Source: Dechloromonas sp. ZY10 (GTDB taxonomy: Bacteria; Pseudomonadota; Gammaproteobacteria; Burkholderiales; Rhodocyclaceae). Taken from it: a stretch of DNA of 64,000 nt. Both the position numbers and the translations under genes were made by a program. This document shows, piece after piece, positions 6,504-63,509 of the stretch (position 1 is its first letter; every line of letters begins with the position of its first letter). The notes below the pieces were generated by a model. The model was not told where the DNA came from, ran no database searches, and saw only the letters and a program-made list of their open reading frames with translations. The stretch spans positions 3,457,501 to 3,521,500 of the forward strand of contig NZ_CP144212.1 in assembly GCF_041378895.1 (NCBI RefSeq), written 5' to 3'.

Positions 6504-8486
6504 TCAGAAGTCGAAGGGATCGACTTCCAGATGCCAGCGCAGCTTGCCCGGCGCCCGCAGTTGCTCGATGGCCTCGCGCCAGCGCGGCAGGAAGGCCTGC
6601 AACAGCGGCCGCGAATGCGATTCGACCAGCAGCTGGCCGCGCTCCAGGCTGGCCAGCCGCGCCATGCGCATCGGCACCGGATCGTAGACCAGCACGTCGG
6701 GAAATTCGGCGACCGGCGGCAGGCCGCTGGCCGCCTTGAGGAAGGCGATGGCGTCAGCCATTTCCGGCGCCTCGGCCCGCAGCACGGCCTGGAAGGAATA
6801 CGGCGGGAAGCCGGCCTGCTCGCGTTCGCGCAACTGGCCGGCGGCAAAGCCGGGGTAATCGTGGGCAACCAGCGCGGCAAACAGCGGGTGATCCGGGTAC
6901 TGGGTCTGGACGATCACCTCGCCTTTCAACTCGGCACGGCCGGCTCGCCCGGCGACCTGCATCAGCTGCGCAAAGAGCCGCTCCGGCGCCCGCCAGTCGG
7001 CGGCGAACAGCGCCGAATCGGCGCCGAGCACGCCGACCAGGGTCAGCTTGGGAAAGTCGTGGCCCTTGGCCAGCATCTGGGTGCCGACCAGGATGTCGGC
7101 CTCGCCGCCGTGGATGCGTTCGAGCACTGCCTCCCACTGTTTTCGGCTTTTGACCGAATCGCGGTCGACGCGCAGCACGCGGGCGCCGGGAAAGGTCTCG
7201 GCGAGCCAGGCTTCGAGCCGCTGGGTGCCGCGCCCATAGGGATGGATGTCCTGGTTGCCGCAGGTCGGGCAGGCCGGCGGCACGCGATGCTCGAAACCGC
7301 AGTGGTGGCAGCGCAAGCGGCGGTCGGCCAGGTGCAGCACCAGGTTGGCGGCGCAACGTTTGCAACGTGAGACCCAGCCACAGGCCGGGCAAGCCAGCAC
7401 CGGCGCGTAGCCACGGCGGTTGAGAAAGACCAGACTCTGCTCACCGCGCTCCAGCCGCTCGCGGATCGCGCTCAGCAGGCCGTCACTAACGCCTTCGCGC
7501 AAGGGCATGCGCCGGGTGTCGTAGAGCCGCACCTGCGGCAGCACCGCCGCCGGATTGGCGCGCTTGGCCAGCGTCTGCAGCCGGTAGCGGCCGTGCCCGG
7601 CATTGGCCCAGGACTCCAGCGACGGCGTCGCCGAACCGAGCAGGATCGGCACATCGTGCTGGCGGGCGCGCACCACCGCCAGATCACGCGCCGAGTAGCG
7701 CATTCCGTCCTGCTGCTTGAACGAGGGATCGTGCTCCTCGTCGACGATGATCAGCCCGAGGCGCGGCAGCGGCGCAAACACCGCCAGGCGGGTCCCAAGG
7801 ACGATCCCGGCACTGCCGGAAAAAGCCGCCCGCCAGTGGCGCTCGCGCGCGGCATCGGCGAGTTCGCTGTGCAGCGCGACCACCTCGACCTCGGCAAAGC
7901 GCCCGCGCACCCGCTCTTCGAGCTGCGGCGTCAGGTTGATTTCGGGCACCAGCAGCAGGACCTGGCGGCCTTGCGCCAGCGCCTTGGCGATCAACTGCAA
8001 GTAAACCTCGGTCTTGCCGCTGCCGGTGACCCCGTGCAGCAAGGTCACGGCAAAGCCGCCGCCCGGCTCGACGGCGGCGACGGCGGCGATCTGCTCGTCG
8101 GTCAGCGGCGGCGACGGCAGCGGCTTGGCGGCCTTGGCTTTACGTCCGGCCTGGCGCTTGGGCGGATTGAGTTTTTTCAGCCCGGCCGGCAGCGCCTGGA
8201 GCAGGGCCTCGCCCGGCGGCGCCTGGTAATAGGTCGCGGCAAAGGCACAGAGATCGAGAAAGTCGGGCGGCAGCGGCGGCAGGTCGCCGAGGATTTCGAG
8301 CGCGTCCTTCAGCTGCTCGCGCGGCCACTCGCTCTCGGCGAGGACGGCGACGATGACGCCGATTTTTTCGCCCCGGATGAAGGGGACCCGCACCCGGCGG
8401 CCAATATCCACGGTCGACGCCGATTCCGACCAATAATCGAACAGTCGGTACAGGGGAACATCGAGTGCAACGCGGAGAACGGGCAT
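6504..8486 (-). CDS. priA: Primosomal replication protein N' (PriA helicase)
   Basis: The 660-residue product restarts stalled replication forks by binding branched DNA and loading DnaB. The N-terminal 3'-DNA-binding domain begins VALDVPLYRLFDYW. The helicase core holds HGVTGSGKTEVYLQL (Walker A) and IIVDEEHDPSFKQQ (Walker B, DEEH box). Two zinc clusters follow: CPACGWVSRCKRC, CHHCGFEH and CPTCGNQ. It is somewhat shorter than E. coli PriA (732), mostly in the linker after the first domain. The hemE gene lies just upstream on the same strand. Confidence 0.96.
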   Translation of the reverse strand: MPVLRVALDVPLYRLFDYWSESASTVDIGRRVRVPFIRGEKIGVIVAVLAESEWPREQLKDALEILGDLPPLPPDFLDLCAFAATYYQAPPGEALLQALPAGLKKLNPPKRQAGRKAKAAKPLPSPPLTDEQIAAVAAVEPGGGFAVTLLHGVTGSGKTEVYLQLIAKALAQGRQVLLLVPEINLTPQLEERVRGRFAEVEVVALHSELADAARERHWRAAFSGSAGIVLGTRLAVFAPLPRLGLIIVDEEHDPSFKQQDGMRYSARDLAVVRARQHDVPILLGSATPSLESWANAGHGRYRLQTLAKRANPAAVLPQVRLYDTRRMPLREGVSDGLLSAIRERLERGEQSLVFLNRRGYAPVLACPACGWVSRCKRCAANLVLHLADRRLRCHHCGFEHRVPPACPTCGNQDIHPYGRGTQRLEAWLAETFPGARVLRVDRDSVKSRKQWEAVLERIHGGEADILVGTQMLAKGHDFPKLTLVGVLGADSALFAADWRAPERLFAQLMQVAGRAGRAELKGEVIVQTQYPDHPLFAALVAHDYPGFAAGQLREREQAGFPPYSFQAVLRAEAPEMADAIAFLKAASGLPPVAEFPDVLVYDPVPMRMARLASLERGQLLVESHSRPLLQAFLPRWREAIEQLRAPGKLRWHLEVDPFDF

Positions 8487-49389: not shown

Positions 49390-49419
49390 TCACGCAAACG
49401 GTAAAAAGCGGCGAAAAGC

Positions 49420-49508
49420 AAAAAAGCCAACCGGCATCGGTTGGCTTTTTCTTTTGCAGATCAATGATCTGCCTGAATTCGATGTGGAGCGGGCGATGGG
49501 AATCGAAC
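49420..49508. repeat. Left attachment repeat of the island (attL-like)
   Basis: This 89-bp stretch matches 63371-63459 at 84 positions. It includes the terminator, a linker and, at 49485-49508, the last 24 bases of a tRNA-Gly gene (minus strand) with no tRNA body after it. It is the displaced copy of the tRNA 3' end, as expected for integration into that gene. Confidence 0.85.
49424..49450. terminator. Bidirectional intrinsic terminator in the left att repeat
   Basis: A 10-bp stem (AAGCCAACCG) with loop GCAT, A-run before and T-run after. It ends the CZB gene, and a near-identical copy lies beside the tRNA at 63371. Confidence 0.85.
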
Positions 49509-49727: not shown

Positions 49728-50507
49728 CTAAATGAGGATATCAGTAATCCGGTTTTCCCCGCCTGGCGATGTTGTAAAGCGCAAGTGCCCTCGGCTAGTC
49801 ATCTCTTTCACCAGTGGCATGAAGTTCTTGTACTGAGTTCGCGCAACGTCAAAACTGGGGTCAATTTCCTTCATCTTGTTATTAGCGGTCGAAACATTGA
49901 TTGGCAACTTGTTCCGATCAATGTTGCGGAGCGCTTTGACAAAGAGATTTTCGATTGCATCGTCAAAGGTCCTGATCTTCGCCTTCGCAAAATCCTCAAG
50001 AAATAGCAAGGTATCAAAAGCTTTAGCCAAAATTGCCCGGTCTTTGTCCTTTTTACGACAGACCAACCAGACCTCCTTCCCGTACTTCCGCAAACGGTCA
50101 CCAATGACTGTAAAGTCGGAGTCGCTAGTCAGGAAACAGTAGCGGTCGATCTTCGGGTTGCCGAGGTAGAGCGTTTCAAAAGCGTCCAAGCTGATGAAGA
50201 GATCGGCCCGGTTCTTCTCCGCGCCAATCTTCGGCGTGTCGATCAACGTGAAGTTGTGGTCGATTAGTTGCTCTTTGAGCGTCTTCTTACCAGTCGTCTG
50301 ATTTCCGTAAGCCGCCTTGATCACGAAAATGCAGTTGTGGTCGTCATCGGCTCGAAGCAATGCACTCATTAAATCTTCCAGCGCAAATTCGGTTGAAGCG
50401 ACATTCTCCATGTCTACGTAAACCGCAATGTTGTACATCTGCTTCTTCATGATTTTTGGATTGTTAGAACAAACGTCGATCGTATCCCGACCGCTATTAT
50501 TTGTCAT
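49728..50507 (-). CDS. NYN domain nuclease with LOTUS-like C-terminus
   Basis: A 259-residue protein. The NYN (PIN-like) domain has the acidic residues of the active site in IAVYVDMENVAST, KNRADLFISLDAFETLYLG and FLTSDSDFTVIGDRLRKYG. The last 80 residues (DDAIENLFVKALRNI, FDVARTQYKNFMPLVKEMTSRG) resemble an OST-HTH/LOTUS RNA-binding winged helix, a common companion of NYN. Expected activity is metal-dependent RNA cleavage. It is the last gene of the minus-strand group that starts with the reverse transcriptase; the 525-residue protein gene ends 12 bases upstream. ATG 50450 is an alternative start. Confidence 0.8.
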   Translation of the reverse strand: MTNNSGRDTIDVCSNNPKIMKKQMYNIAVYVDMENVASTEFALEDLMSALLRADDDHNCIFVIKAAYGNQTTGKKTLKEQLIDHNFTLIDTPKIGAEKNRADLFISLDAFETLYLGNPKIDRYCFLTSDSDFTVIGDRLRKYGKEVWLVCRKKDKDRAILAKAFDTLLFLEDFAKAKIRTFDDAIENLFVKALRNIDRNKLPINVSTANNKMKEIDPSFDVARTQYKNFMPLVKEMTSRGHLRFTTSPGGENRITDILI

Positions 50508-50519
50508 GATCTGGGGCGC

Positions 50520-52097
50520 TTATAACTGTGCGTAGGTGGCCTTTTGCATCATCGCGAAAACGAATTGCAGCGCCTCCTCGGTAGGCTCCTGAGCACGGAG
50601 CCAGCGGATGGAAACCCCAATGTATAGTGCCCATTCGACTCCTTTCTTGAAGCTTTTCCAGCGATCCGTTTTTGCGGCAAGCTCGATGAATTGGTTCACC
50701 AGCAGATACTGGCTACCGCCGGCTCGGTACTTCGCCTGCTCGAAGGCATATTCCATATGATAGAAGGCAGACTCGTAGTCACCGTTCCGGTAGCGAACGA
50801 CTGCACGCAACCAACGCTCCATCCAGTTGAGATGTGACGCTAAGCCGTCCTGTCGGAGTGCCTGCAGGTACTGATCAATATCCTCGTCGCTGCATTCGGA
50901 ATTTTTCTTTAACTCGAATCCTTCGCCTAGCCTTTGTGGAAAGCCGGAAGGAATGGAAAATTCGCGATTGATTTCCAATCTGTCGAGTGCGGTACGCACA
51001 CTGTACTCGCCATACCTCTGAATAAGTTCAGCAACCGTATCAGCGGGCAGAGGGTTGTAGTCGTTCTCGTGCAGCAAGTAATCCAGCGTATTGGCCAAGT
51101 CGGCGTAGCGATCGCGGAACCAGGTCCAGTATTGCTCCGAGAACTCCATCCAGACTGTATCTATGGCGATTGGCGGGACGCTGTATCCCTCGATATATGA
51201 AGTGGTTTCTTCTGTAAATGAATCAAGGTCGACTGATAGCCAATCGCGGTGTTGCGTGAATTGGGTGATTAACTGCTCCAGTATGACCGTCCCGTAGGCT
51301 TCCTTGATCAAATTGCAAATGTAGGTAGCCAGCCGGGCCAAGAAAAGCACCTGAAAGATGCTTTCACGCAACTTCTCTGGAAAATGGCGCTGATACGCTC
51401 TGTCGCTATGGCTTTCAAGATGCTCAAATGAGCGCGCAAAGTTCCAAGACAGACCGGGCCATGATGGAAGACGTTCTCCTTTAAACCAGTCCGACGCGTT
51501 CTCTAGGTTCTGCTGTAGCTCTGCATCATCAGTGTTGGCGCTCTTGCCCGGGTAGTGAAAGTGTGTCCGGCTGACACCGCAGGCTTCATAAACCCAAGAC
51601 ATGGCTTTCTTGATCGGCAAAATGATCTCGTCGCCGTTAACCGTAGGCAGGTACCAGTTGGGGTCAGGCGGAATTGCGAATCCCTCAGAAGCCAAATTGA
51701 AACGGAGTGCGTGCTTCTGGATTGATATCGCCAGTCGGGGAATTGCATGTGCGCGACAAAACCAAAGAATGCTGTCTTTCTTGTTGAGATAAGTACCCTC
51801 ATCACGAATGACGGCGTTGTAAACCTCGAAGAGGTCCATAACACCTTCGCCAAATGCCAAATTTACTTTGGCGTTCGGTATCGCACCGGCTGTCAGAAAA
51901 CCCAGGTTACGGATCAGCTCACCACAGCGATCCGTCAGGCTACCTTCTTCGTCGGTAAGGCGCTGGAGCTGTTTTTGAATACGCTTTTTATCTGTGTCGT
52001 TTAGGCCGTCGTTTTCTCCCCGTTTGCGGGGTAGAACGCCTGCTGCGTCAAAAGCAAACTTGACCAGTTCGCCCAGTGTCGGAAAGTTATCGTTCAT
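50520..52097 (-). CDS. Uncharacterised 525-residue protein of the reverse transcriptase group
   Basis: I do not recognise a family. The protein starts with a short helical region rich in charged residues (NDTDKKRIQKQLQRLTDEEG), then a Trp/Tyr-rich middle (ILPIKKAMSWVYEACGVSR, WFRDRYADLANTLDYLLHEN), and ends with helical hairpins that could be TPR-like (WLRAVVRYRNGDYESAFYH). No membrane segment, nuclease motif or ATP-binding loop is visible. It lies directly before the NYN gene and after the small Asn/Gln-rich gene on one strand, so it is probably a partner of the reverse transcriptase or of the nuclease. Confidence 0.75.
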   Translation of the reverse strand: MNDNFPTLGELVKFAFDAAGVLPRKRGENDGLNDTDKKRIQKQLQRLTDEEGSLTDRCGELIRNLGFLTAGAIPNAKVNLAFGEGVMDLFEVYNAVIRDEGTYLNKKDSILWFCRAHAIPRLAISIQKHALRFNLASEGFAIPPDPNWYLPTVNGDEIILPIKKAMSWVYEACGVSRTHFHYPGKSANTDDAELQQNLENASDWFKGERLPSWPGLSWNFARSFEHLESHSDRAYQRHFPEKLRESIFQVLFLARLATYICNLIKEAYGTVILEQLITQFTQHRDWLSVDLDSFTEETTSYIEGYSVPPIAIDTVWMEFSEQYWTWFRDRYADLANTLDYLLHENDYNPLPADTVAELIQRYGEYSVRTALDRLEINREFSIPSGFPQRLGEGFELKKNSECSDEDIDQYLQALRQDGLASHLNWMERWLRAVVRYRNGDYESAFYHMEYAFEQAKYRAGGSQYLLVNQFIELAAKTDRWKSFKKGVEWALYIGVSIRWLRAQEPTEEALQFVFAMMQKATYAQL

Positions 52098-52124
52098 GAT
52101 CGATCACACCGCTTCTTAAAAGTG

Positions 52125-52151
52125 CGTATCCCCGCACGCAGCGGGGATACG
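52125..52151 (-). promoter_or_regulatory. Hairpin inside the reverse transcriptase gene group
   Basis: An 11-bp perfect stem CGTATCCCCGC with loop ACGCA sits between the small gene and the 525-residue gene. Only four T follow on the minus strand, so it may be a partial terminator, an attenuator or an mRNA-processing site. Confidence 0.45.
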
Positions 52152-52156
52152 ACGCA

Positions 52157-52312
52157 TCACTTTTGGTTCGGATTGAACTGCTTACCCCGATTGCCATGAA
52201 CCTGAGCGTTGACCGGGTTCGTCCCAGAAGTCCCTCGATTGTTATTGAGTGCGTTCGCACGGTCGTTCAACTGTTGCTGGGTACGTGATTGCTGTTGGGA
52301 TTGCTTTGCCAT
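52157..52312 (-). CDS. Small Asn/Gln-rich protein, NRGTSGTN type
   Basis: ATG 52312 follows a TAGGAG box and encodes 51 residues: MAKQSQQQSRTQQQLNDR, NNNRGTSGTNPVNAQVHGN and RGKQFNPNQK. It is polar, probably unstructured, with no signal peptide. Small proteins with the NRGTSGTN and RGKQ-NPN words are seen in other bacterial mobile elements, often misnamed alpha-amylase; no function is known. It lies 93 bases after the reverse transcriptase stop. Confidence 0.7.
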   Translation of the reverse strand: MAKQSQQQSRTQQQLNDRANALNNNRGTSGTNPVNAQVHGNRGKQFNPNQK

Positions 52313-52405
52313 GATTACTCCTAGCTGGGTTAAAGGAGTAGCCATGGTATTTGCCGATGCTCAGCGCGTAACCTGGAGTTTTGGCGACGTGAATTTGGAA
52401 TGGAA

Positions 52406-55400
52406 TTAACCCGCCGGTTTGGTCTTTACAGGCTTGAAAACCTTGTGCGTTCTCCTGAAAGCAGCAGGATCAATGTCAGCCACATGAATGGAAATTTGGT
52501 CTGCGCCGTGCACATGGGAAACGAGCCGGTCGTAATGCTCTTTGTAGGGAGCTTGTACCGTCGATCCGCCGAACTCCCCCTTATTAACGACCACTACGTG
52601 CTGATACATATGGTAGTTAAGCGCTGCTGCCATAGTGTCGAAGGTACTCACATCTTTGTTATGTGCACAGACAACAAACAAATCTGTTTTCTTTTTCAAA
52701 TCGGCCGCCAAGTTTAGGTCTGTCGCGTCATAGCATATAGCCCCGCCGATGCGAATCGCCCCCTCCTCGGCTCCTGTTAGTTCGATAATGTGCTGACAAG
52801 GCCTATGGCCGGAAATGCCCAAATATTTCTCTCCTTTAGTCATATTGGCTTTCCCTTGATCTCGAATGATCCAGTGACGTCCAGACGGTCGGTAGTCTGG
52901 AATAAACCAGCGGGCAACATTTACCAACTTCCCTTTATGATCGAGAAAAACCAAACCGGCAAAGACGATCGACCTTGTCTTATCAGCAAGGCGCTTCAAT
53001 AAATCCTGATCGTCTTGATGTACTGCGACCTCTGGAAAGACTATCAAATCGGCGCCAGTCCCCGATTTATCTTTGTCTGCTTCGAGCTTGGCCGATAAGG
53101 TCTTGTAGGTTAATCGGCAGACTCTCGCCACGTGGGCACGTGCGTCCGCTCGTGCCTTTGGTAGATCTAGCTTAGGGTCACTAACCGTAAAATCTTTAGT
53201 CCGGGGCAACAATTGCTGCACCGTGACAATTCGAAACGTGGAACGCGATGCATCTGATGGCCGCTTAATCGTAGTAACCAAGGCTGGCATTCTTGAAGCC
53301 GAGCAGTAATTGCTGTTCAGTAACGCTTCCCGGTCTTTCAACACGCTCTTTAGCGTAGCAAGACCATCTATACCCGCGATGTCTTCACACTGAAGAAATG
53401 TCGACTCAAATCCAGGCCATTGCAGGCATTTCATCAGCAACTCAGACATCCAATTGGATACAGTTGCATAATTTCCAACCAACGCCTCCGCAGCATGCAT
53501 CATGCCCATTCGGCGTTTATACCATCCCGTTCTCAATCCCTTGTAACCGATAATTTTGCCTGACTTCCAGCGATTACCGGTGTAGTCGCTTCCTCCAACG
53601 ACCGCTGCTCTAAGGATAGTTCCAATCCAATAGACCACCACATGATCGGAATTATTGCAGTCCAACCATGGTGGGATTTCAAATCGAGGATCGATCGTCT
53701 TAGTCTGAGCGGTGCTCACGCATTTAAGCACCTCAACGCTGGGCAACCAAAGCTCATCCCAACCTGCATTCGCTTTTTCTTTGGATATATCTAATTCACT
53801 CGGAGAAAGCGGCAGTAAATCAAAGTTATTTTCTGCAAAGGTAATGAGTGCAAGCGCCAGTTTGACCAACGCCACTTCGTGCTCAAACCCATTATTTTCT
53901 GATGCAATAATTTTTGATAGTTTCTGCTTATGCGATTTAAGATCTGCGGCAAAAATTGGTGAGGCCCATTTGAGACGATCGGCAAGATTTTGCCATTCCT
54001 TCGCTTTTGACAATCGCTTCCAAACGCTGAGCCAGAACTCTCCTCCTCGCTTGGCAATTTCTTCAAGTACGCCATATTTGACGTCGTCGTTCTGCCTTTC
54101 AATTGTCTGCAGCAAATACGAGGCAAAGATATTAGGCTTTCCCGTTATCTGGGCAGCGACCTCAAAGAGCGCCGAACGTTGGCGCTGATATTCGGGTAGT
54201 CTGCCAGCCAAAATTGCATGCAGACTGTGCTGAATAGTTTTTTCTATTTCACTATCGCTGATAACAACCGGCTTCTGCAAGGTAGCTAGCAATAACAAGG
54301 CTTGTCGTTCGAGAAAACGTGGTATTTCAGGAACCGAAATGATTTTTTGAGCTAGGCTCGCGGCAACGTCCAGAGCTTCCTCAGGTGCAGCGGATAGCGG
54401 GTAATCGATCCGTTGGAAGAATCCGTTGAAATCAACACAGCAGCGGAAAATATCGGCAAGCAAGTAATCCATCATTGCTGCCGTTTGCAAATCATCCTTG
54501 AACCCGCCCACCGCACTTCTTCTGTAGACTGCGTTCAGAACAGGCTCGACAATTGCCGGAGAGGGGAATATTTCGATTGCCTTTCTCAACACAAGGCCGA
54601 GTGATGGATCTTGCATCCAAGCTCTTATCAGCTTTTTGGCCAAGAGCTCACTTTCGTTGTCCTCTAGGTTCGCTGCCTCTGCATCTTGTATTCCGCCCCC
54701 GGTCAGTTTTCGCTTGCTCCGAGTTATCGACTCCAATCGATTGGCCGCAAATCGCTTTAACGTATCTAAGCGGACATCATGGTCAAACCTAACCAGCCGA
54801 AATAGCGGTTTATCCTGATCATTTAGCTTATCGAAGGATTCATCGAGGTCATCAGATTGGGAGCTTAGCAACCCTTCTAATACTGCTGACGCATTCTCCA
54901 ACACATCACGATCAGCTGGGCCGCTCAGGTCCTCTTGCAATAGCGCGATGCGCCCAGATAGGCTCCCTCGATTATCCAAATCAGATAGCGCAGTAACCTT
55001 GGTTTTCTTACCATTGAGCTCAATTGAATTCCCGGCATAAGCTTTAAGCTGATGAGAAATCCAATTGTTGATCCCGAGAGCCAAAGTGTCTCTGTCATAA
55101 TTATCAAAACTGACCACCAACCGCAGATCATCGACATACCTGCAGTAATCATGCAGCACTACGCCTCGCATCTTTGGAAGGCTCTCACCGATATGCTTCC
55201 CAATGGCCCGATCGAACTCCACCATGTACGCGTTGGCAAAGAAGCCCGAAGCCACTAGCCCTTGCGGTAGCCCTTGGCCTAGTTGCATACCTAATTTATT
55301 TGCGGTCTCCTTCGCCTCGTCATGCCATTGCCAATCAATAATCTTCTGAGCAGTTGCCCAAAATCTTCGGCACTCATCCTTGTAGCCATATTCCTTGGCT

Positions 55401-56107
55401 AAAGATTTCAAGCGTTTCACTAATACTGCTCGATCAACATTGTCATAAAACTTGGAGAGATCGAGATTAATGACAAAAACGTGGTCGGTATCGCTAACCG
55501 AATTAGCCACGTTTCGCCCAATATCAATGGGGCGCCGCAAAAAGTTTTGATAATCGGTAAAAAACTTTCGATAGGTTTCCCCATTTCCCCATCGGAACCA
55601 TGCCCCCTGGTCGTTCCAGTCGCAAAGCAAGCGATTTCCGTAACTGAATACGCGGTTCTTATTCCGCGAAGTGACTGCCTTACTACAATCACCTTGTGCG
55701 GTCTCGACTGCATCAGCCAAGCAAAGCATCAGAGCAGATGCCCAAGTTTGGTCTCTGATTGTCAAATGGGCTAATGGTCGAAGCGGTGGCTTGATCTTCC
55801 GATCTTCCGCAGGTTGCAGAGGGGCCCAGCCCTCATCTGGTTTTATGTCCCATGTATCAGATTTCGCTGCTGGCACCAACTCCAGTGGGACCAATTCGAG
55901 ATTTTCATTTTCTAGTGCATCGGCCCACGCTTTAGAGTTGCGCTCCAGCCCTAGCGCGGACACATCTAAAGCCAAAGTGTCAGCGTACCAATTATGAGTA
56001 CGCATATAGCCATGTGTTTTCTTCCAAGCTTGGGCAATCACAACTTGATCGGCCAGATACTCGATCTGAGGTTTAAGCTTTCGATAGTGTTCTGAAATGA
56101 GTTTCAT
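52406..56107 (-). CDS. Reverse transcriptase-nitrilase fusion (UG1 / DRT type 1-like)
   Basis: A 1,233-residue protein. The N-terminal reverse transcriptase has motif 2 INLDLSKFYDNVDR (Asp 216), motif 4 QGLPQGLVASGFFANAYM (279-296) and the catalytic YVDD (324-327) in HDYCRYVDDLRLV. A long helical region without known motifs covers about 400-960. The C-terminal nitrilase domain has all three catalytic residues: Glu in LIVFPEVAV (about 1026), Lys in DQGKANM (about 1086) and Cys in GGAICYDATD (1125). RT plus nitrilase is the architecture of UG1 (DRT type 1) defence reverse transcriptases. No ribosome-binding site is obvious before ATG 56107. Confidence 0.88.
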   Translation of the reverse strand: MKLISEHYRKLKPQIEYLADQVVIAQAWKKTHGYMRTHNWYADTLALDVSALGLERNSKAWADALENENLELVPLELVPAAKSDTWDIKPDEGWAPLQPAEDRKIKPPLRPLAHLTIRDQTWASALMLCLADAVETAQGDCSKAVTSRNKNRVFSYGNRLLCDWNDQGAWFRWGNGETYRKFFTDYQNFLRRPIDIGRNVANSVSDTDHVFVINLDLSKFYDNVDRAVLVKRLKSLAKEYGYKDECRRFWATAQKIIDWQWHDEAKETANKLGMQLGQGLPQGLVASGFFANAYMVEFDRAIGKHIGESLPKMRGVVLHDYCRYVDDLRLVVSFDNYDRDTLALGINNWISHQLKAYAGNSIELNGKKTKVTALSDLDNRGSLSGRIALLQEDLSGPADRDVLENASAVLEGLLSSQSDDLDESFDKLNDQDKPLFRLVRFDHDVRLDTLKRFAANRLESITRSKRKLTGGGIQDAEAANLEDNESELLAKKLIRAWMQDPSLGLVLRKAIEIFPSPAIVEPVLNAVYRRSAVGGFKDDLQTAAMMDYLLADIFRCCVDFNGFFQRIDYPLSAAPEEALDVAASLAQKIISVPEIPRFLERQALLLLATLQKPVVISDSEIEKTIQHSLHAILAGRLPEYQRQRSALFEVAAQITGKPNIFASYLLQTIERQNDDVKYGVLEEIAKRGGEFWLSVWKRLSKAKEWQNLADRLKWASPIFAADLKSHKQKLSKIIASENNGFEHEVALVKLALALITFAENNFDLLPLSPSELDISKEKANAGWDELWLPSVEVLKCVSTAQTKTIDPRFEIPPWLDCNNSDHVVVYWIGTILRAAVVGGSDYTGNRWKSGKIIGYKGLRTGWYKRRMGMMHAAEALVGNYATVSNWMSELLMKCLQWPGFESTFLQCEDIAGIDGLATLKSVLKDREALLNSNYCSASRMPALVTTIKRPSDASRSTFRIVTVQQLLPRTKDFTVSDPKLDLPKARADARAHVARVCRLTYKTLSAKLEADKDKSGTGADLIVFPEVAVHQDDQDLLKRLADKTRSIVFAGLVFLDHKGKLVNVARWFIPDYRPSGRHWIIRDQGKANMTKGEKYLGISGHRPCQHIIELTGAEEGAIRIGGAICYDATDLNLAADLKKKTDLFVVCAHNKDVSTFDTMAAALNYHMYQHVVVVNKGEFGGSTVQAPYKEHYDRLVSHVHGADQISIHVADIDPAAFRRTHKVFKPVKTKPAG

Positions 56108-56620: not shown

Positions 56621-56766
56621 GGTGAACTCCATTTCCATTAGTTTAGAAATGAAGAGCGGACTGGAAGCGTCCAGGGTATCCATCCCTGCTTCACACCGAG
56701 AAGGACTGAATCGCCCCGGCCTCATTAGATACTCCTGAGCCTTAAACTTAGGGTCAAGGAGGCCTC

Positions 56767-57045
56767 ATGAGCAGCAAGCGTTACCCGGAAGAGTTCAAGA
56801 TTGCGGCGGTCAAGCAAGTGACCGATAGTGGTCATTCAGCACCCGACGTAGCACAACGTCTCGGCGTGTCACAGCCGACGCTGTACGAGTGGATCAAGAA
56901 GTACAGCCTGCCAGAACCGGAGCGGCTGGAGCAACAGAGCCAGTCGGGCGAGATTCGGCGCTTGAAAGCGGAACTGAAGCGCGTGACCGAGGAGGGCGAC
57001 ATTCTAAAAAAGGCCGCAGCGTACTTTGCCAAAGAGTCCCGGTAA
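56767..57045 (+). CDS. IS3-family transposase OrfA
   Basis: A 92-residue protein with the helix-turn-helix KRYPEEFKIAAVKQVTDSGH and APDVAQRLGVSQPTLYEW, and a leucine-zipper-like helix. It binds the ends of the element. The slippery heptamer AAAAAAG at 57006-57012 near its end directs a -1 frameshift to make the fused OrfAB transposase. Confidence 0.92.
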   Translation: MSSKRYPEEFKIAAVKQVTDSGHSAPDVAQRLGVSQPTLYEWIKKYSLPEPERLEQQSQSGEIRRLKAELKRVTEEGDILKKAAAYFAKESR

Positions 57046-57914
57046 GGTACGCATTCATCGAATCGGAGGAGGTGCGGTACCCAGTGCGGAGACTGTGCCG
57101 CATGATGTCTGTGCATCCGAGCGGCTATTACGCCTGGAAAGCAAATCCTGCCTCTGAACGAGACAAGGAAGATCAGCGCCTGCTCGGATTGATCAAGCAA
57201 AGCTGGTTGGAAAGCGGCGGGGTGTATGGGTACCGCAAGATCGCCCATGATCTGCGCGATCTCGGCGAATCCTGTGGCAAGCATCGGGTCTATCGGCTGA
57301 TGCGACAGGAAGGGCTGCGCGCTCAAGTTGGCTATGGCCGCCGTTCGCATCGCTATGGCAAGCCGGCTGTGGTGGCTATCAACCAACTGGAGCAGAAGTT
57401 CGACGTTGAGGCCCCCAACCAAGCGTGGGTCACGGACATTACCTACATCCGAACTCATGAGGGCTGGCTATATCTTGCAGTCGTCCTTGATCTGTTTTCA
57501 CGCCAAGTGATTGGTTGGTCGATGCGCTCACGGATCGACAGCGAATTGGTTCTCAAGGCCTTACTGATGGCCGTCTGGCGCAGAAATCCATCTGGCCCGG
57601 TGATTGTGCATTCCGATCAGGGAAGCCAATACAGCAGCCATGACTGGCAGGCCTTCCTGAAGGCTCATGGGCTGGTAGCCAGTATGAGTCGTCGAGGCAA
57701 CTGCTACGACAACGCGGTCGCAGAGAGCTTCTTTCAGTTGCTCAAGCGCGAGCGTATCCGTCGCAAGGTCTATCTCGACCGAGAGGAGGCTACGCGTGAT
57801 GTCTTCAATTACATCGAAATGTTCTACAACCCGAAACGTCGTCACAGCCATGCCAACGACGTTTCTCCGGTAGAGTTCGAAAAGCAATATTTCAACCGGC
57901 TACAGAGTGTCTAG
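57012..57914 (+). CDS. IS3-family transposase OrfB (expressed as OrfAB by -1 frameshift)
   Basis: About 300 residues in the -1 frame after the slippery site. HTH_21-like region VHPSGYYAWKAN is followed by an rve integrase core with the DDE residues in WVTDITYIRTHEG, IVHSDQGSQYSS and NCYDNAVAESFFQLLKRE. It appears complete. The first in-frame residues after slippage are GRSVLCQRV. Confidence 0.9.
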   Translation, partial: GRSVLCQRVPVRYAFIESEEVRYPVRRLCRMMSVHPSGYYAWKANPASERDKEDQRLLGLIKQSWLESGGVYGYRKIAHDLRDLGESCGKHRVYRLMRQEGLRAQVGYGRRSHRYGKPAVVAINQLEQKFDVEAPNQAWVTDITYIRTHEGWLYLAVVLDLFSRQVIGWSMRSRIDSELVLKALLMAVWRRNPSGPVIVHSDQGSQYSSHDWQAFLKAHGLVASMSRRGNCYDNAVAESFFQLLKRERIRRKVYLDREEATRDVFNYIEMFYNPKRRHSHANDVSPVEFEKQYFNRLQSV

Positions 57915-57916
57915 TA

Positions 57917-58189
57917 ATGCCGGGGCGATTCATCTTGACGAGCCCCAACGGTCAAGGGCAGATCAAGGTTTATGAGAACGGCGCTGCTCAACCGAATCTT
58001 GGGGCAAAAAACGTCGCAAAATATCCAATTTCACTGCCGGACACCCCTGAGCAAAAGAGAATTGTTAAGGATCTCGATCTGTTGGCGCTTGAAACCCAGC
58101 GCCTCGACTCTCTCTATCAGCGCAAACATGCTGCGCTCGACGAACTGAGGCAATCCTTGCTGCATCAGGCTTTCAGCGGCAATCTGTGA
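57917..58189 (+). pseudogene. hsdS: C-terminal fragment of a type I restriction specificity subunit
   Basis: The frame runs out of the IS end and then reads SPNGQGQIKVYENGAAQPNL, ISLPDTPEQKRIVKDLDLLA and LYQRKHAALDELRQSLLHQAFSGNL, the second conserved helix and C-terminus of HsdS. Both target-recognition domains are gone. HsdS normally fixes the DNA target with HsdM; here neither is left, so the locus cannot methylate. Confidence 0.85.
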
Positions 58190-58201
58190 GGACACACTCG
58201 C

Positions 58202-59998
58202 ATGGCAACCCAGCGTTATTCCGTTACCCCCCACCCGATTGAAACTCTGCTGACCTGGGTCAAGTCTGGTGAGATCGCAATTCCCGAAATTCAGCGCCCC
58301 TTCGTGTGGGAGGCAACGCGAGTTCGTAATCTGCTGGACTCCCTGTATCAGGGTTATCCAGTGGGCTATCTGATTGCCTGGCGCAATCCGACCGTGAAGC
58401 TTAAGGACGGCACAGCCTCGGCAGGTAAGCGCATCCTGATCGACGGGCAGCAGCGGGTCACGGCGTTGATGGCTTCCTTGCTCGGCGTGGAGGTGTTGAC
58501 CGAAGATTACGAAACCGTGCAGATCCGCATCGCCTTTAACCCTCAGACAGAAGGGTTTGAGGTGAGCAACCCGGCTATTCGCAAGGATGTGGCTTGGTTG
58601 CCCGATGTGGCCAAGGTTTTCGACCCCAAAACTAGCGTTTTCCAGCTGGTGACCGAGTATTGCAGTGCTAATCCCGGGTGTTCGCAGGATACGGTCTTCA
58701 AGGTGATCGAGCGGCTGCGTGGGATTGTGCATAACCACGTTGGCATCATTGAGCTGGCGGAAGATCTGGATATTGAAACCGTCACGGAAATCTTCATTCG
58801 CGTGAACTCCGCCGGTGCCCAACTCTCGCAGGCAGACTTTGCCATGTCGAAGATCGCGGTAAACGAGACTTATGGCGGCAATGTGCTGCGCAAGGCCATC
58901 GATTACTTCTGCCATCTGGCGGTGGCGCCGGACTTCAAGTCCAAGATCGAGAAAGGTGACGCGGCCTTCGTCGGCTCGGAGTTCTACGGCAAGATGAAGT
59001 GGATCTGCGATGTGAATGACGACATCTACGATCCCACCTACACCGATATGCTGCGTGTGGCCTTCACCTCGGAATTTGGGCGAGGCAAGCTGCAGGATCT
59101 GGTGGCGCTGCTCTCCGGCCGCAATTTCGAGTCGAAGCAGTTCGAAGAGGCAATTGCCGAGCAGTCCTTCGCCAAGTTGAAAGACGGCATCCACGCCTTC
59201 ATCAACGAAACACACTTCAAGCGCATCACCATGATCCTGCGCTCGGCCGGTTTCATCACCAGCGACATGATCAGCAGCCAAAACGCGGTGAACTTCGCCT
59301 ACATCCTGTACCTTCGGGGGCGTAAGGAAGGCGTGCCGGCCGCAGAGCTGGAGCAACTGGTTCGACGCTGGTTCGCCATGTCGGTACTGCGAGGGCGTTA
59401 CAGCGGCTCCCCCGAATCGCAGTTCGATTTTGACATTCGCCAGATCGAAAGCCGGGGAGTAAAGGCTGTGGTGGAGACTGTGATAGCAGCCGAATTGCCA
59501 GAGAGCTTCTGGACCGGCATGCTGCCTCAGTTCATGGCCACGTCGTCAATCAAGAGCCCCTATTTCCTTTGCTACAAGGCTGCGCAGGGCAAACTTGGAG
59601 ACAAGGGTTTCCTTTCAACCAACATCACCGTGACGGATCTGCTGCTCAATCGCTCGGATATTCACCACGTCTATCCACGTCAGTACCTAAAGGGTTTGGG
59701 TTTCAGCGCCAGTACCTACAACCAAATCGCCAACTATGTGGTGGCACAAAGCGAAATCAATATCGCTATCAGCGCCACGGCACCGGGTGTCTACTTTGCT
59801 GCCTTGGCAGAGCAGTGCAAGGGCGGTGTGCTGAAGTACGGTGGTATCAGCGACGAGCAAACCATGCGCGAGAATCTGCGCATGAATTGCATCCCTGAAT
59901 CCATGCTTGACGGTGAAATCAAGGACTTTAGCGATTTCCTCGAAGAACGCCGCAAGCTCATGGCCTTGAAAGTTAAGGCTTGGTTTGAGGTGCTGTGA
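58202..59998 (+). CDS. DUF262 protein with HNH-like C-terminus (GmrSD-like)
   Basis: A 598-residue protein. The ParB-like DUF262 domain has [20 protein letters not shown] and the nucleotide-hydrolysis motif [12 protein letters not shown] (81-85). Further on, [20 protein letters not shown] is typical of the family. The C-terminal part has HHVYPRQYL (His 488-489) and an Asn-rich helix (SEINIAIS), as in DUF1524-type HNH nucleases. GmrSD-like proteins cut modified phage DNA. It stands between hsdS and hsdR, a place where such genes are often found, and its stop overlaps the hsdR start (TGATG). Confidence 0.82.
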
Positions 59999-62397
59999 TG
60001 AACGAAGCCGAAACCCGCGCCGAACATATCGACCCCGCACTGGCCGCCTCGGGCTGGGGCGTCATTGAAGGCAGCAGGATTCGGCGCGAGTATCCGATCA
60101 CCCTCGGCCGGTTGGAGGGGGGCGGAAAGCGTGGCAAACCGCTGACTGCGGACTATGTGCTGGAATATCGCAACACTAAGCTCGCTGTCGTCGAGGCTAA
60201 GGCCTGGGCCAAGCCTCTGACCGAAGGCGTTGGCCAGGCTAAGGATTACGCCGGCAAGCTCGCACTCCGCTTCACTTACGCGAGCAATGGCCAGGGCATC
60301 TACGGTATCGACATGCACACCGGCCACGAGGGCGAGCTGCCTGCCTTCCCCTCACCAGAGGCCCTATGGCAAGCCACCTTCGCTGTCGAGAATGCCTGGC
60401 GCAACCGCTTTGCCGCCGTACCCTTCGAGGATAAAGGCGGGTACTGGCAGGGGCGCTACTATCAGGATATTGCTATCGAACGGGTGCTGGCTGCGCTGGC
60501 GGACGGGCAGGACCGGATTCTCCTGACCCTGGCTACCGGCACCGGCAAAACCTTCATCGCCTTCCAGCTAGCCTGGAAGCTATTTCAAAGCCGCTGGAAT
60601 ATCACTGATTGGAAATCCAACATTGAGCCAACGCGGCGCCCACGCATTCTTTTCCTGGCTGACCGCAACATCTTGGCCGATCAGGCCTACAACGCTTTTT
60701 CAGCATTTCCGGAAGATGCTTTGGTGCGCATTTCACCGGACGACATCAAAAAGAAGGGCAAGGTACCTAAGAACGGCAGCATCTTCTTCACCATCTTCCA
60801 GACTTTCATGAGCGGCCCTCCCAAGGATGGTCACCCGTCGCCCTACTTCGGCGAATATCCGCAGGATTTTTTTGATTTCATCGTCATCGACGAATGCCAC
60901 CGGGGCGGTGCGAACGATGAAAGCAACTGGCGCGGCATCCTGGAATACTTCGCTCCCGCCGTACAGTTGGGGTTGACCGCCACACCAAAGCGCAAGGACA
61001 ACGCCGATACCTACGCTTACTTTGGCGAGCCAGTATTCATCTACTCCTTGAAAGACGGTATCAACGACGGTTTTTTGACGCCTTTCCGCCTCAAGCAGAT
61101 CGCCACTACGCTGGATGAGTACGTCTATACCCCTGACGACAAACTGGTGGAAGGTGAGATCGAGGCCGGCAAACGCTATGAAGAAGCCGACTTCAATCGG
61201 ATCATCGAGATCAAGGAACGGGAGAAGAAGCGGGTCGATATCTTCATGCAGTCCATCGACCAGAAGGAAAAGACGATCGTGTTCTGTGCCACGCAGGAAC
61301 ACGCCCTGGCGGTGCGAGATCTGATCAATCAAGCTAAGCAAAGCAGTGATCCGAACTATTGCCAGCGCGTCACAGCGGAGGATGGAGTGCTGGGCGAGCA
61401 GTGGCTTCGCGACTTTCAGGATAACGAGAAGACAATTCCGACCATCCTGACGACCTCGCAGAAACTCTCAACCGGGGTCGATGCCCGTAACGTACGCAAT
61501 ATCGTGCTGATGCGACCGGTGAATTCGATGATCGAGTTCAAGCAGATCATCGGCCGCGGCACCAGGCTCTACGACGGCAAGGACTACTTCACCATCTACG
61601 ATTTTGTGAAAGCACATCACCACTTTAGTGATCCAGAGTGGGATGGTGAGCCGGTAGAGCTTGAGGCCTGCAAGAAATGTGGCAATACGCCCTGCACTTG
61701 CGAAAAGAGGCCGCCTCAACTGTGTCCTGCCTGTGGAAATCAGCCCTGCTCATGCCCGAAGGAGCCGTGCCCGAAATGTGGCAATCGGCCATGCACCTGC
61801 AAGAAGAAGGCAAAGGTAAAGCTCGCGGACGGTAAGGAACGGCAAATTCAGTTCATGACCGCGACCAGTTTCTGGCACCCGGATGGCACACCCATGTCTG
61901 CCGCACAGTTCATGGAGGCCCTATTCGGCAAGCTGCCAGAGTTTTTCAAGGATGAGGACGAACTGCGGACGATCTGGAGCGCACCAGATACGCGCCGCAA
62001 GTTGCTTGATGGGCTCGCCGAAAAGGGGTTCGGCAAAGATCAGCTAGCCGAGATGCAAAAGATCATCGAGGCCGACAAATCAGACCTATTCGATGTGCTG
62101 GCCTTTGTCGCCTATGCGGACACACCGCTAACCCGCGAGGAGCGTGCAGAACGAGCGAAGGTTGTAATCAGCCAAGAGTTTGGCGACAAGCAGCGAGCCT
62201 TCCTGACCTTTGTGCTTGCTCATTACGTCAGTGCGGGTGTGGATGAACTGGATGAAACTAAGCTCGGGCCGCTGTTGAAGCTGAAGTACAACAATGCGAT
62301 CGCCGATGCGTTTGCTGACCTTGGCGCGCCTGACGTTGTGCGGAAAGCCTTTGTTGGCTTTCAACGGTATTTGTACTTCGATGCTCCCCAAAACTAG
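59998..62397 (+). CDS. hsdR: Type I restriction endonuclease subunit R, EcoEI type
   Basis: A 799-residue motor-nuclease. The nuclease site is ADYVLEYRNTKLAVVEAKA (D, E and K of PD-(D/E)XK near 52-68). Helicase motifs are LATGTGKTFIAF, FIVIDECHRGG, LGLTATPKRKDN and IIGRGTRLYDGKDYF. Around residues 555-600 a cysteine-rich insert has three CxxCGNxPCxC repeats, likely zinc knuckles, before the EcoEI-type C-terminal domain. The gene is intact, but without HsdM and full HsdS the enzyme should not assemble. Confidence 0.92.
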   Translation: MNEAETRAEHIDPALAASGWGVIEGSRIRREYPITLGRLEGGGKRGKPLTADYVLEYRNTKLAVVEAKAWAKPLTEGVGQAKDYAGKLALRFTYASNGQGIYGIDMHTGHEGELPAFPSPEALWQATFAVENAWRNRFAAVPFEDKGGYWQGRYYQDIAIERVLAALADGQDRILLTLATGTGKTFIAFQLAWKLFQSRWNITDWKSNIEPTRRPRILFLADRNILADQAYNAFSAFPEDALVRISPDDIKKKGKVPKNGSIFFTIFQTFMSGPPKDGHPSPYFGEYPQDFFDFIVIDECHRGGANDESNWRGILEYFAPAVQLGLTATPKRKDNADTYAYFGEPVFIYSLKDGINDGFLTPFRLKQIATTLDEYVYTPDDKLVEGEIEAGKRYEEADFNRIIEIKEREKKRVDIFMQSIDQKEKTIVFCATQEHALAVRDLINQAKQSSDPNYCQRVTAEDGVLGEQWLRDFQDNEKTIPTILTTSQKLSTGVDARNVRNIVLMRPVNSMIEFKQIIGRGTRLYDGKDYFTIYDFVKAHHHFSDPEWDGEPVELEACKKCGNTPCTCEKRPPQLCPACGNQPCSCPKEPCPKCGNRPCTCKKKAKVKLADGKERQIQFMTATSFWHPDGTPMSAAQFMEALFGKLPEFFKDEDELRTIWSAPDTRRKLLDGLAEKGFGKDQLAEMQKIIEADKSDLFDVLAFVAYADTPLTREERAERAKVVISQEFGDKQRAFLTFVLAHYVSAGVDELDETKLGPLLKLKYNNAIADAFADLGAPDVVRKAFVGFQRYLYFDAPQN

Positions 62398-63318: not shown

Positions 63319-63370
63319 ACTTGGTTTGATTGGGAATTACCCAGCTCTGACCAGATATCGACCAGACAAC

Positions 63371-63459
63371 AAAAAAGCCAACCGGTCTCGGTTGGCTTTT
63401 TCTTTTGCAGATCAACGACCTGCCGGAATTCGATGTGGAGCGGGCGATGGGAATCGAAC
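63371..63459. repeat. Right attachment repeat of the island (attR-like)
   Basis: Copy of 49420-49508 with five substitutions, two of them in the terminator loop. Its last 24 bases are the 3' end of the intact tRNA-Gly gene. It includes the terminator of the tRNA (stem AGCCAACCG at about 63376). Confidence 0.85.
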
Positions 63460-63509
63460 CCACGGCTCTAGCTTGGGAAGCTAGGGTATTACCATTATAC
63501 GACGCCCGC
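63436..63509 (-). tRNA. tRNA-Gly (anticodon CCC)
   Basis: A 74-base cloverleaf. Acceptor arms GCGGGCG/CGCCCGC pair fully, the anticodon stem CTAGC/GCTAG encloses the loop TTCCCAA, so the anticodon is CCC (reads GGG). The T arm has GGGTTCGATTCCC, and CCA is encoded. It is the integration target of the island; the 3' 24 bases are duplicated at 49485. Confidence 0.95.

Follow-up and report, generated by a model that had tools for sequence, protein, structure and literature searches.

Four genes lie in a row on the minus strand of a 64,000-nucleotide stretch of the genome of Dechloromonas sp. ZY10 (contig NZ_CP144212.1; the whole stretch is called the window here). They encode a reverse transcriptase (RT) fused to a nitrilase domain, a peptide of 51 residues (P51), a protein of 525 residues (P525) and a protein with a NYN domain. 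The locus raises the question of whether these genes form one antiphage system, as was proposed in a preliminary description of the region, in which the NYN RNase and the 525-residue protein were seen as possible partners of the RT. The positions of the open reading frames (ORFs) confirm the four genes at the places given in that description (aa, amino acids):

49728..50507, minus strand: NYN-domain protein (RNase-like), 259 aa, passenger gene (PF01936, 67.3 bits against a cut-off of 24.2)
50520..52097, minus strand: P525, helical protein of 525 aa, weakly similar to TPR proteins near the C-terminus
52157..52312, minus strand: P51, basic peptide of 51 aa rich in Asn and Gln, encoded by the first gene of the P51-P525 unit
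52406..56107, minus strand: DRT1 (UG1) reverse transcriptase-nitrilase, 1233 aa (PADLOC PDLC03745, Drt1a, 1426.8 bits over residues 1-1233)

The row is modular. It is probably made up of three independent cargo units of one mobile island of about 14 kb at a tRNA-Gly gene: the DRT1 gene, the P51-P525 pair and a lone NYN gene. The pair is worth more than the RT result, being conserved, having its own conserved upstream box and having no family match in four libraries.

Linkage at related loci

Linkage was assessed by profile searches of six frames (E <= 1e-3) at 15 other RT loci and 15 other P525 loci. On the RT side there are 12 full-length loci, found on plasmids (L031-L034), in the same genus (L036), in other genomes (L092-L095) and on viral contigs (L099-L101), and three partial loci (L096-L098). 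These RTs were chosen by full-length match to the window RT (27-54% identity) and not by PADLOC class. A single-sequence scan of the genome contig collection with the RT found no relative, and the RT relatives were therefore taken from plasmids, whole genomes and viral contigs. Seven plasmid records matched, the four covering at least 80% being used, and 4 of 60 genomes matched, with partial matches in G001 and G027 left uncounted. The P525 side consists of a Neptuniibacter plasmid (L006), a same-genus genome (G030, locus L035), 12 genome-contig loci (L068-L079) and a viral contig (L080). The P525 frame is broken in L076, and L079 holds a fragment of the gene.

P51, P525 and NYN are each absent from all 15 related RT loci (0/15 for each). 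Likewise, neither the RT nor a window-type NYN gene was found at the 15 other P525 loci, and tblastn with the window NYN gave nothing above noise in the linkage loci (best E 0.64; none at E <= 0.01). The linkage of the RT with the other three genes is not recurrent, and the partnership proposed for the RT with NYN and the 525-residue protein is not supported from either side of the comparison. A pairing of NYN with P525 was also considered and was dropped on the same 0/15 count.

P51 is just upstream of P525 at 14 of the 15 other P525 loci (13/14 without G030, which was reached through P51), the sole miss being the gene fragment of L079. The P51 of L072 lacks its start, next to ORFs resembling an IS3 transposase by eye. 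Because P51 accompanies P525 at 14/15 of these loci, and the RT and NYN at 0/15, the pair is regarded as the real find of the locus. The 51-mer and the 525-mer do go together, forming a separate two-gene unit with a box of its own upstream; membership of the RT and NYN is not supported.

An 18-kb region of G030 has a single DNA match to the whole window, at 50521-52388 (71.5%). This match is the box described below plus P51 and P525, and it ends at both flanks. Judged from this alignment, P51-P525 moves as a unit. In G030 it is flanked by a TniQ gene and, on the opposite side, by a 337-aa gene without a name, and a TnsA-like gene, an AAA gene (TniB below the cut-off) and a second TniQ gene are nearby. 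The 337-aa protein, encoded upstream of P51 (L035 9241-10254), has probable membrane segments by eye and matched nothing in Pfam, PADLOC or PHROG within the limits applied.

The P51-P525 pair is found in beta- and gammaproteobacteria. P525 is rare in the samples searched, occurring in 1/369 genomes of the class and 1/120 of the order, both being ZY10, and in 1/72,556 plasmid records; none was found in phage records. A type IIG restriction gene is downstream of P525 in L072, L074, L078 and L080 (PDLC03598, E 1.1e-259 or lower), and a PDC-S66 match plus an AriA-like ATPase are near it in L071 and L077. TniQ and TnsA-like genes are near P525 in L035 (a Tn7-like element) and an integrase in L068, and L006 is a plasmid. 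The neighbours of the remaining P525 loci were read by eye or partly scanned.

Box and hairpin of the P51-P525 unit

Three features accompany the pair in the window:

52368..52388, minus strand: conserved 21-nt box, GTCKCCAAAANNCCNRGNTAC, upstream of P51 and 55 nt from its ATG, with 17/17 positions matched
52344..52349, minus strand: -10-like TACCAT at fixed spacing from the box
52122..52153, minus strand: intercistronic hairpin between P51 and P525 (gap fold -24.4 kcal/mol, z -3.1)

The box is conserved, with at least 15 of 17 positions matched in 12/14 loci, and has one exact match in the ZY10 genome. Averaged over the pairs of 10 chosen loci, identity is 0.67 within the box and 0.61 in the 8-nt -10-like segment, against 0.34 ahead of the box and 0.27 in the spacer. 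The box pattern was taken from the very loci that were scored and was positioned by best match; its scores are therefore partly circular and its identity is inflated. The -10-like segment, at fixed spacing and not placed by best match, is the independent part. The box and the -10-like segment would together be a dedicated promoter of P51-P525. In the window this box, common to the P51-P525 loci, sits right after the RT stop. A consensus promoter scan of the region gave 5 promoter-like sites (7.6 in shuffles), and the box promoter is not among them. The box was also considered as a general sigma-factor site. This was rejected, with 3 genome matches at two or fewer mismatches against 9 for the reversed-pattern control.

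A GC-rich hairpin is present in all 14 P51-P525 gaps folded (z -1.2 to -4.9). In L075 it is inside the end of P51 (z -3.0), which brings the total to 15/15 loci, window included. The hairpin sequence differs between distant loci, and RNAalifold finds 5 common pairs, 3 of them with double changes. It may be guessed that the hairpin sets the dosage of P51 and P525. A further conserved hairpin, suspected immediately ahead of the P51 start, was dropped (z -4.3 to +0.3 over 13 loci folded).

The P51 and P525 proteins

P51 was described as Asn/Gln-rich, and the window peptide is 39% Asn+Gln with an isoelectric point (pI) of 12. Across 15 rows the peptides are 48-68 aa long with 24-39% Asn+Gln, the pI is 10.4-12.0 in 15/15 and the C-terminal half is conserved. 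The ratio of nonsynonymous to synonymous substitution rates (dN/dS) is 0.04-0.29 in the 6 of 8 pairs that gave a finite value, and by this measure P51 behaves as a protein-coding gene under purifying selection. The structural model is unconfident (pLDDT 56), with one helix at residues 5-22, and the peptide is probably disordered. No signal peptide is visible by eye.

The model of P525, made with 12 sequences, is nearly all helical and confident (pLDDT 89.6, pTM 0.87). Foldseek found no match at E <= 0.001 in PDB or BFVD. There are hints of TPR structure, from designed TPR proteins (best E 0.073) and the SycD chaperone (probability 0.92, E 1.4). The most conserved stretches are residues 425-490, in the weakly TPR-like C-terminal part, and 143-184, with 13 invariant residues each. 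The pI is 5.2-7.0 in 14/14 aligned proteins, most being acidic. Neither protein matches a family at the cut-off or E-value limit in Pfam, NCBIfam, PADLOC or PHROGs. No toxin domain was found in P525 by the family libraries or Foldseek, and no DNA-binding family is above its cut-off (HTH_69, 14 bits against 27).

In the open-access literature no P51-P525 pair and no link between NYN and DRT was found. P51-P525 is a solid two-gene unit and apparently an undescribed one. At 1.9 kb it is small enough for direct cloning and testing.

Near the P525 fragment of L079, an ORF (7147-7230) opens with a stretch holding NRSNQLNPNN, like GNRGKQLNPNQ of the P51 C-terminus, a resemblance that may be due to chance or to a short motif in common. 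The P51-like peptides met without P525, in L029 and on viral contig L123, hint that small Asn-rich peptides form a wider family; the one in L123 is followed, by eye, by another tiny ORF, a Gly-rich one.

Possible roles of P51-P525

The best reading of P51-P525 is that of a protein carried by mobile islands and controlled by a peptide, with defence and addiction as the leading guesses. A sensor or effector that is bound by the peptide and serves in mobile-element defence is favoured. As one of three units side by side, P51-P525 would be transcribed separately from its own promoter, and the hairpin after P51 would make the peptide more abundant than P525. P51 would bind P525 and set its state. 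Invasion by another element would then abolish or change this binding, and P525 would be freed to act. The stand-alone DRT1 would work by the mechanism published for its relative, and the NYN gene would be a lone RNase-like gene that landed beside the other two units. A fuller version is speculative and rather unlikely. It takes P51-P525 for an undescribed mobile defence system in which a hairpin-driven excess of peptide is held by P525, the complex represses or arms itself via the 21-nt box, and an invading phage or plasmid upsets the peptide and so frees P525 to stop the cell. Should the pair turn out to serve in defence or addiction, it would represent a peptide-controlled kind of system whose fold is unmatched.

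Several points weigh against three separate units with a peptide-controlled pair among them. The box scores in L070 (12) and L075 (10) are not above those of shuffles (maxima 12). The covariation term of the hairpin is nearly nil, and the hairpin is not among the 10 terminator-like sites found by a terminator scan (shuffles 7.0, sd 2.9). The TPR similarity of P525 is not significant (best E 0.073), and two P525 proteins among the 14 have a nearly neutral pI (7.0). Several of the P525 neighbourhoods, among them the four with a type IIG gene, may come from a single island family and do not count as independent. P51-like peptides occur twice without P525, on viral contig L123 (4947-5114) and a Comamonas plasmid (L029, 5926-6078), and the role of P51 may be wider than the pair. 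The linkage counts have limits of their own. The NYN profile, built from 2 sequences, lacked a positive control in the linkage set, and one of 55 plasmid NYN neighbourhoods was looked at. Flanks are limited, the P525 loci being 3.8-25.6 kb in all and the RT loci 4.6-19.9 kb; L069, L071 and L072 reach 0.6-1.4 kb upstream of P525, and L096 and L097 are contig-end pieces. The four genes may also be one unit in ZY10 alone.

Other explanations of the pair have to be considered. P51-P525 could, tentatively, be a toxin-antitoxin-like pair in which one protein neutralises the other, P51 acting on P525 or P525 on P51, and which would stabilise mobile elements or work by abortive infection. The conserved order, with the small gene first and the larger second, is consistent with this, as are the opposite charges of the two proteins in most loci, the presence of the box just once in the genome, as with autoregulated promoters, and the location on islands and a plasmid. 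Toxin-antitoxin gene pairs usually overlap tightly. However, P51 and P525 are separate in 14/15 P51-carrying loci, window included, and overlap only in L075; the gaps are 42-59 nt where measured, with a strong hairpin between the genes or at their junction. P525 also has no toxin domain, and P51 is alone in two records.

It is possible, if doubtful, that the pair is a peptide-receptor switch for sensing invasion that also controls its own promoter via the box, much as TPR receptors work with short partner peptides in broad terms. Pairs of this kind, the RRNPP type, include Rap/Phr and AimR/AimP. P51-P525 resembles them in having a short peptide gene beside that of a helical, possibly TPR-containing protein, and the weak TPR-like C-terminal part is among the two most conserved stretches of P525. 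P51 is under strong constraint, and the box is a dedicated one. P51 differs from the RRNPP peptides in having no export signal visible by eye, and P525 matched none of these families in the libraries searched. The TPR similarity is short of significance, and the DNA-binding family HTH_69, at 14 bits against 27, is below its cut-off.

With similarly little confidence, it may be proposed that P51-P525 has no defence role, serving for example in stress or element maintenance, and is found in defence islands merely as these are cargo-rich. The lack of a PADLOC match and the P51-like peptides alone elsewhere agree with this, but the repeated company of restriction and other defence-model genes does not. 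Lastly, control of the NYN RNase by the RT or nitrilase product within one four-gene system, in which P51 and P525 would be partners, is highly improbable and largely refuted by the linkage test (0/15 RT loci and 0/15 P525 loci). In its favour, the four genes follow one another on the same strand, and the island holds restriction genes. Against it, the P51-P525 box comes directly after the RT stop, NYN probably starts 69-81 nt from P525, and DRT1 defends alone according to PMC13275509.

The mobile island

The ends of the island are 90-bp repeats of the 3' end of tRNA-Gly, and the window holds the following features of it:

49419..49508, plus strand: island end, att-like, 90-bp repeat of the tRNA-Gly 3' end, 94% identical to 63370-63459
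63370..63459, plus strand: other island end, overlapping tRNA-Gly(ccc) at 63436-63509
56707..57932, plus strand: IS3-like insertion with terminal repeats TGAATCGCCCCGGC and rve and HTH_21 domains, adjoining a truncated HsdS
57917..62397, plus strand: type I restriction remnant, with an HsdS C-terminal piece (57917-58189), a DUF262-like gene (58202-59998) and HsdR (59995-62397)

The tRNA-Gly position is that given by ARAGORN, and the two repeats have exact stretches of 34, 28 and 16 bases in common. Rfam gave one sub-threshold match, inside the att repeat. Between the repeats are NYN, P525, P51, the RT, a small ORF, the IS3-like element, the HsdS piece, the DUF262-like gene, HsdR and a 303-aa gene without a name. 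No integrase gene was noticed by eye, the IS3-like transposase aside, part of the ORFs having been scanned. The RT is in a mobile island with restriction genes. The remnant was recognised by Methylase_S and Specificity_I matches and by HEC-05 and REase_I matches; the gene at 58202-59998 is one which we take to be DUF262-like. No HsdM was seen beside HsdR in the window ORF list, a search elsewhere not having been made. The type I system of the window looks broken, because no HsdM was seen next to HsdR and the IS3-like element abuts the truncated HsdS (56707-58189).

The NYN gene

The protein had been described as NYN-LOTUS. The NYN domain is well above its cut-off, and the C-terminal winged helix is below the Pfam cut-offs (eIF2D WH 26.1 against 27; OST-HTH, the LOTUS part, 16.1 against 23.8). 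The closest relative found is encoded on a Stanieria plasmid (L030, 48%), and D32, D102, D129 and D131 are common to both proteins. The window protein is like other bacterial NYN-domain proteins (PF01936) in its NYN core with conserved Asp, and differs in its sub-threshold winged-helix/LOTUS match and in having its nearest relative found on a cyanobacterial plasmid. Because the Stanieria relative begins at about window residue 20-24, the true start is probably at 50450 or 50438, which would give a gap to P525 of 69 or 81 bases. The gap of 12 bases reported before is valid solely for the first ATG. No RT, P51 or P525 was found within 9.4 kb around the Stanieria gene.

NYN domains are common, being found in 46/60 relatives (E <= 0.001, mostly about 28% identity) and in 55 plasmid records, and the ZY10 genome holds a second NYN gene. 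A close match is rare, with 1/398 genomes of the phylum at E <= 1e-15, namely ZY10, and a viral scan found none. Nothing ties DRT1 to the NYN RNase here, and a false lead is thereby stopped.

The DRT1 reverse transcriptase

The assignment of the RT to UG1 / DRT type 1 is upheld. It has a full-length match to the solved DRT1 structure (PDB 9yfd_A, E 5.8e-294), and the Drt1a model gives 1427 bits against 143 for the best model from another UG group, RT_UG5-nitrilase. This supports a new member of the type, the class being set by model scores and not by a tree. The residues named earlier, an intact YVDD and a nitrilase Glu-Lys-Cys triad, are in place, each kept in 5/5 aligned rows:

55127..55138, minus strand: RT catalytic YVDD, residues 324-327
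53030-53032, minus strand: nitrilase Glu1026
52850-52852, minus strand: nitrilase Lys1086
52733..52735, minus strand: nitrilase nucleophile Cys1125
54923..54925, minus strand: Ser395, aligned with the priming Ser402 of the published DRT1 (alignment to 9yfd)

The Ser395 column has Ser in 4 of the 5 rows, L032 having Gly there plus a two-residue insertion; the column adjoins a gap, which makes this alignment one step less certain.

According to PMC13275509, DRT1 can protect as a single gene, and protection against phage needs the RT active site, the nitrilase active site and Ser402, each of them. The same paper describes protein-primed, template-free synthesis of DNA by DRT1 on itself, the DNA adducts driving a dormant filament, and, for the relative studied, release of the nitrilase upon infection and arrest of the infected cell. 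A second gene, drt1b, adjoins about 18% of drt1 genes there, so that most published DRT1 are, as in the window, without it. The window RT is like the published DRT1, a class 3 UG/Abi RT, in full-length homology, YVDD, the nitrilase E-K-C, the aligned serine and its single-gene form, and differs in having P51-P525 and NYN as mere neighbours.

Three Drt1b queries found no drt1b in the window by tblastn, and none was found in the ZY10 genome, though the control of that search also gave no match. It is directly after the RT in 5 of the 12 full-length relatives, as found by PADLOC (L031-L033) or tblastn (L100, L101), and the same three queries found none in the other seven. The five have the same RT as the window and carry the small drt1b, whereas the window is one more DRT1 member without drt1b found. 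The Drt1a model (E <= 0.001) has matches in 88/369 genomes of the class, and the only full-length one is ZY10 (1427 bits), the next having 62 bits. G260, G275 and G308 weakly match both the RT and nitrilase parts of the model and may be other RT-nitrilase kinds.

Some related RTs have neighbours of their own. In L095 (6228-7235) an Abi_2 / AbiD gene is directly after a DRT1-like RT, the ends overlapping, and is a possible local partner there. A Sphingobium DRT1-like RT (27%) in L034 is followed by a convergent gene of an RT-associated PD-(D/E)XK type (PDLC03797, 10786-11538). The closest RT relative found (54%), in L099 (8001-14239), is followed directly by a type I HsdR, and the window DRT1 is also near a type I remnant.

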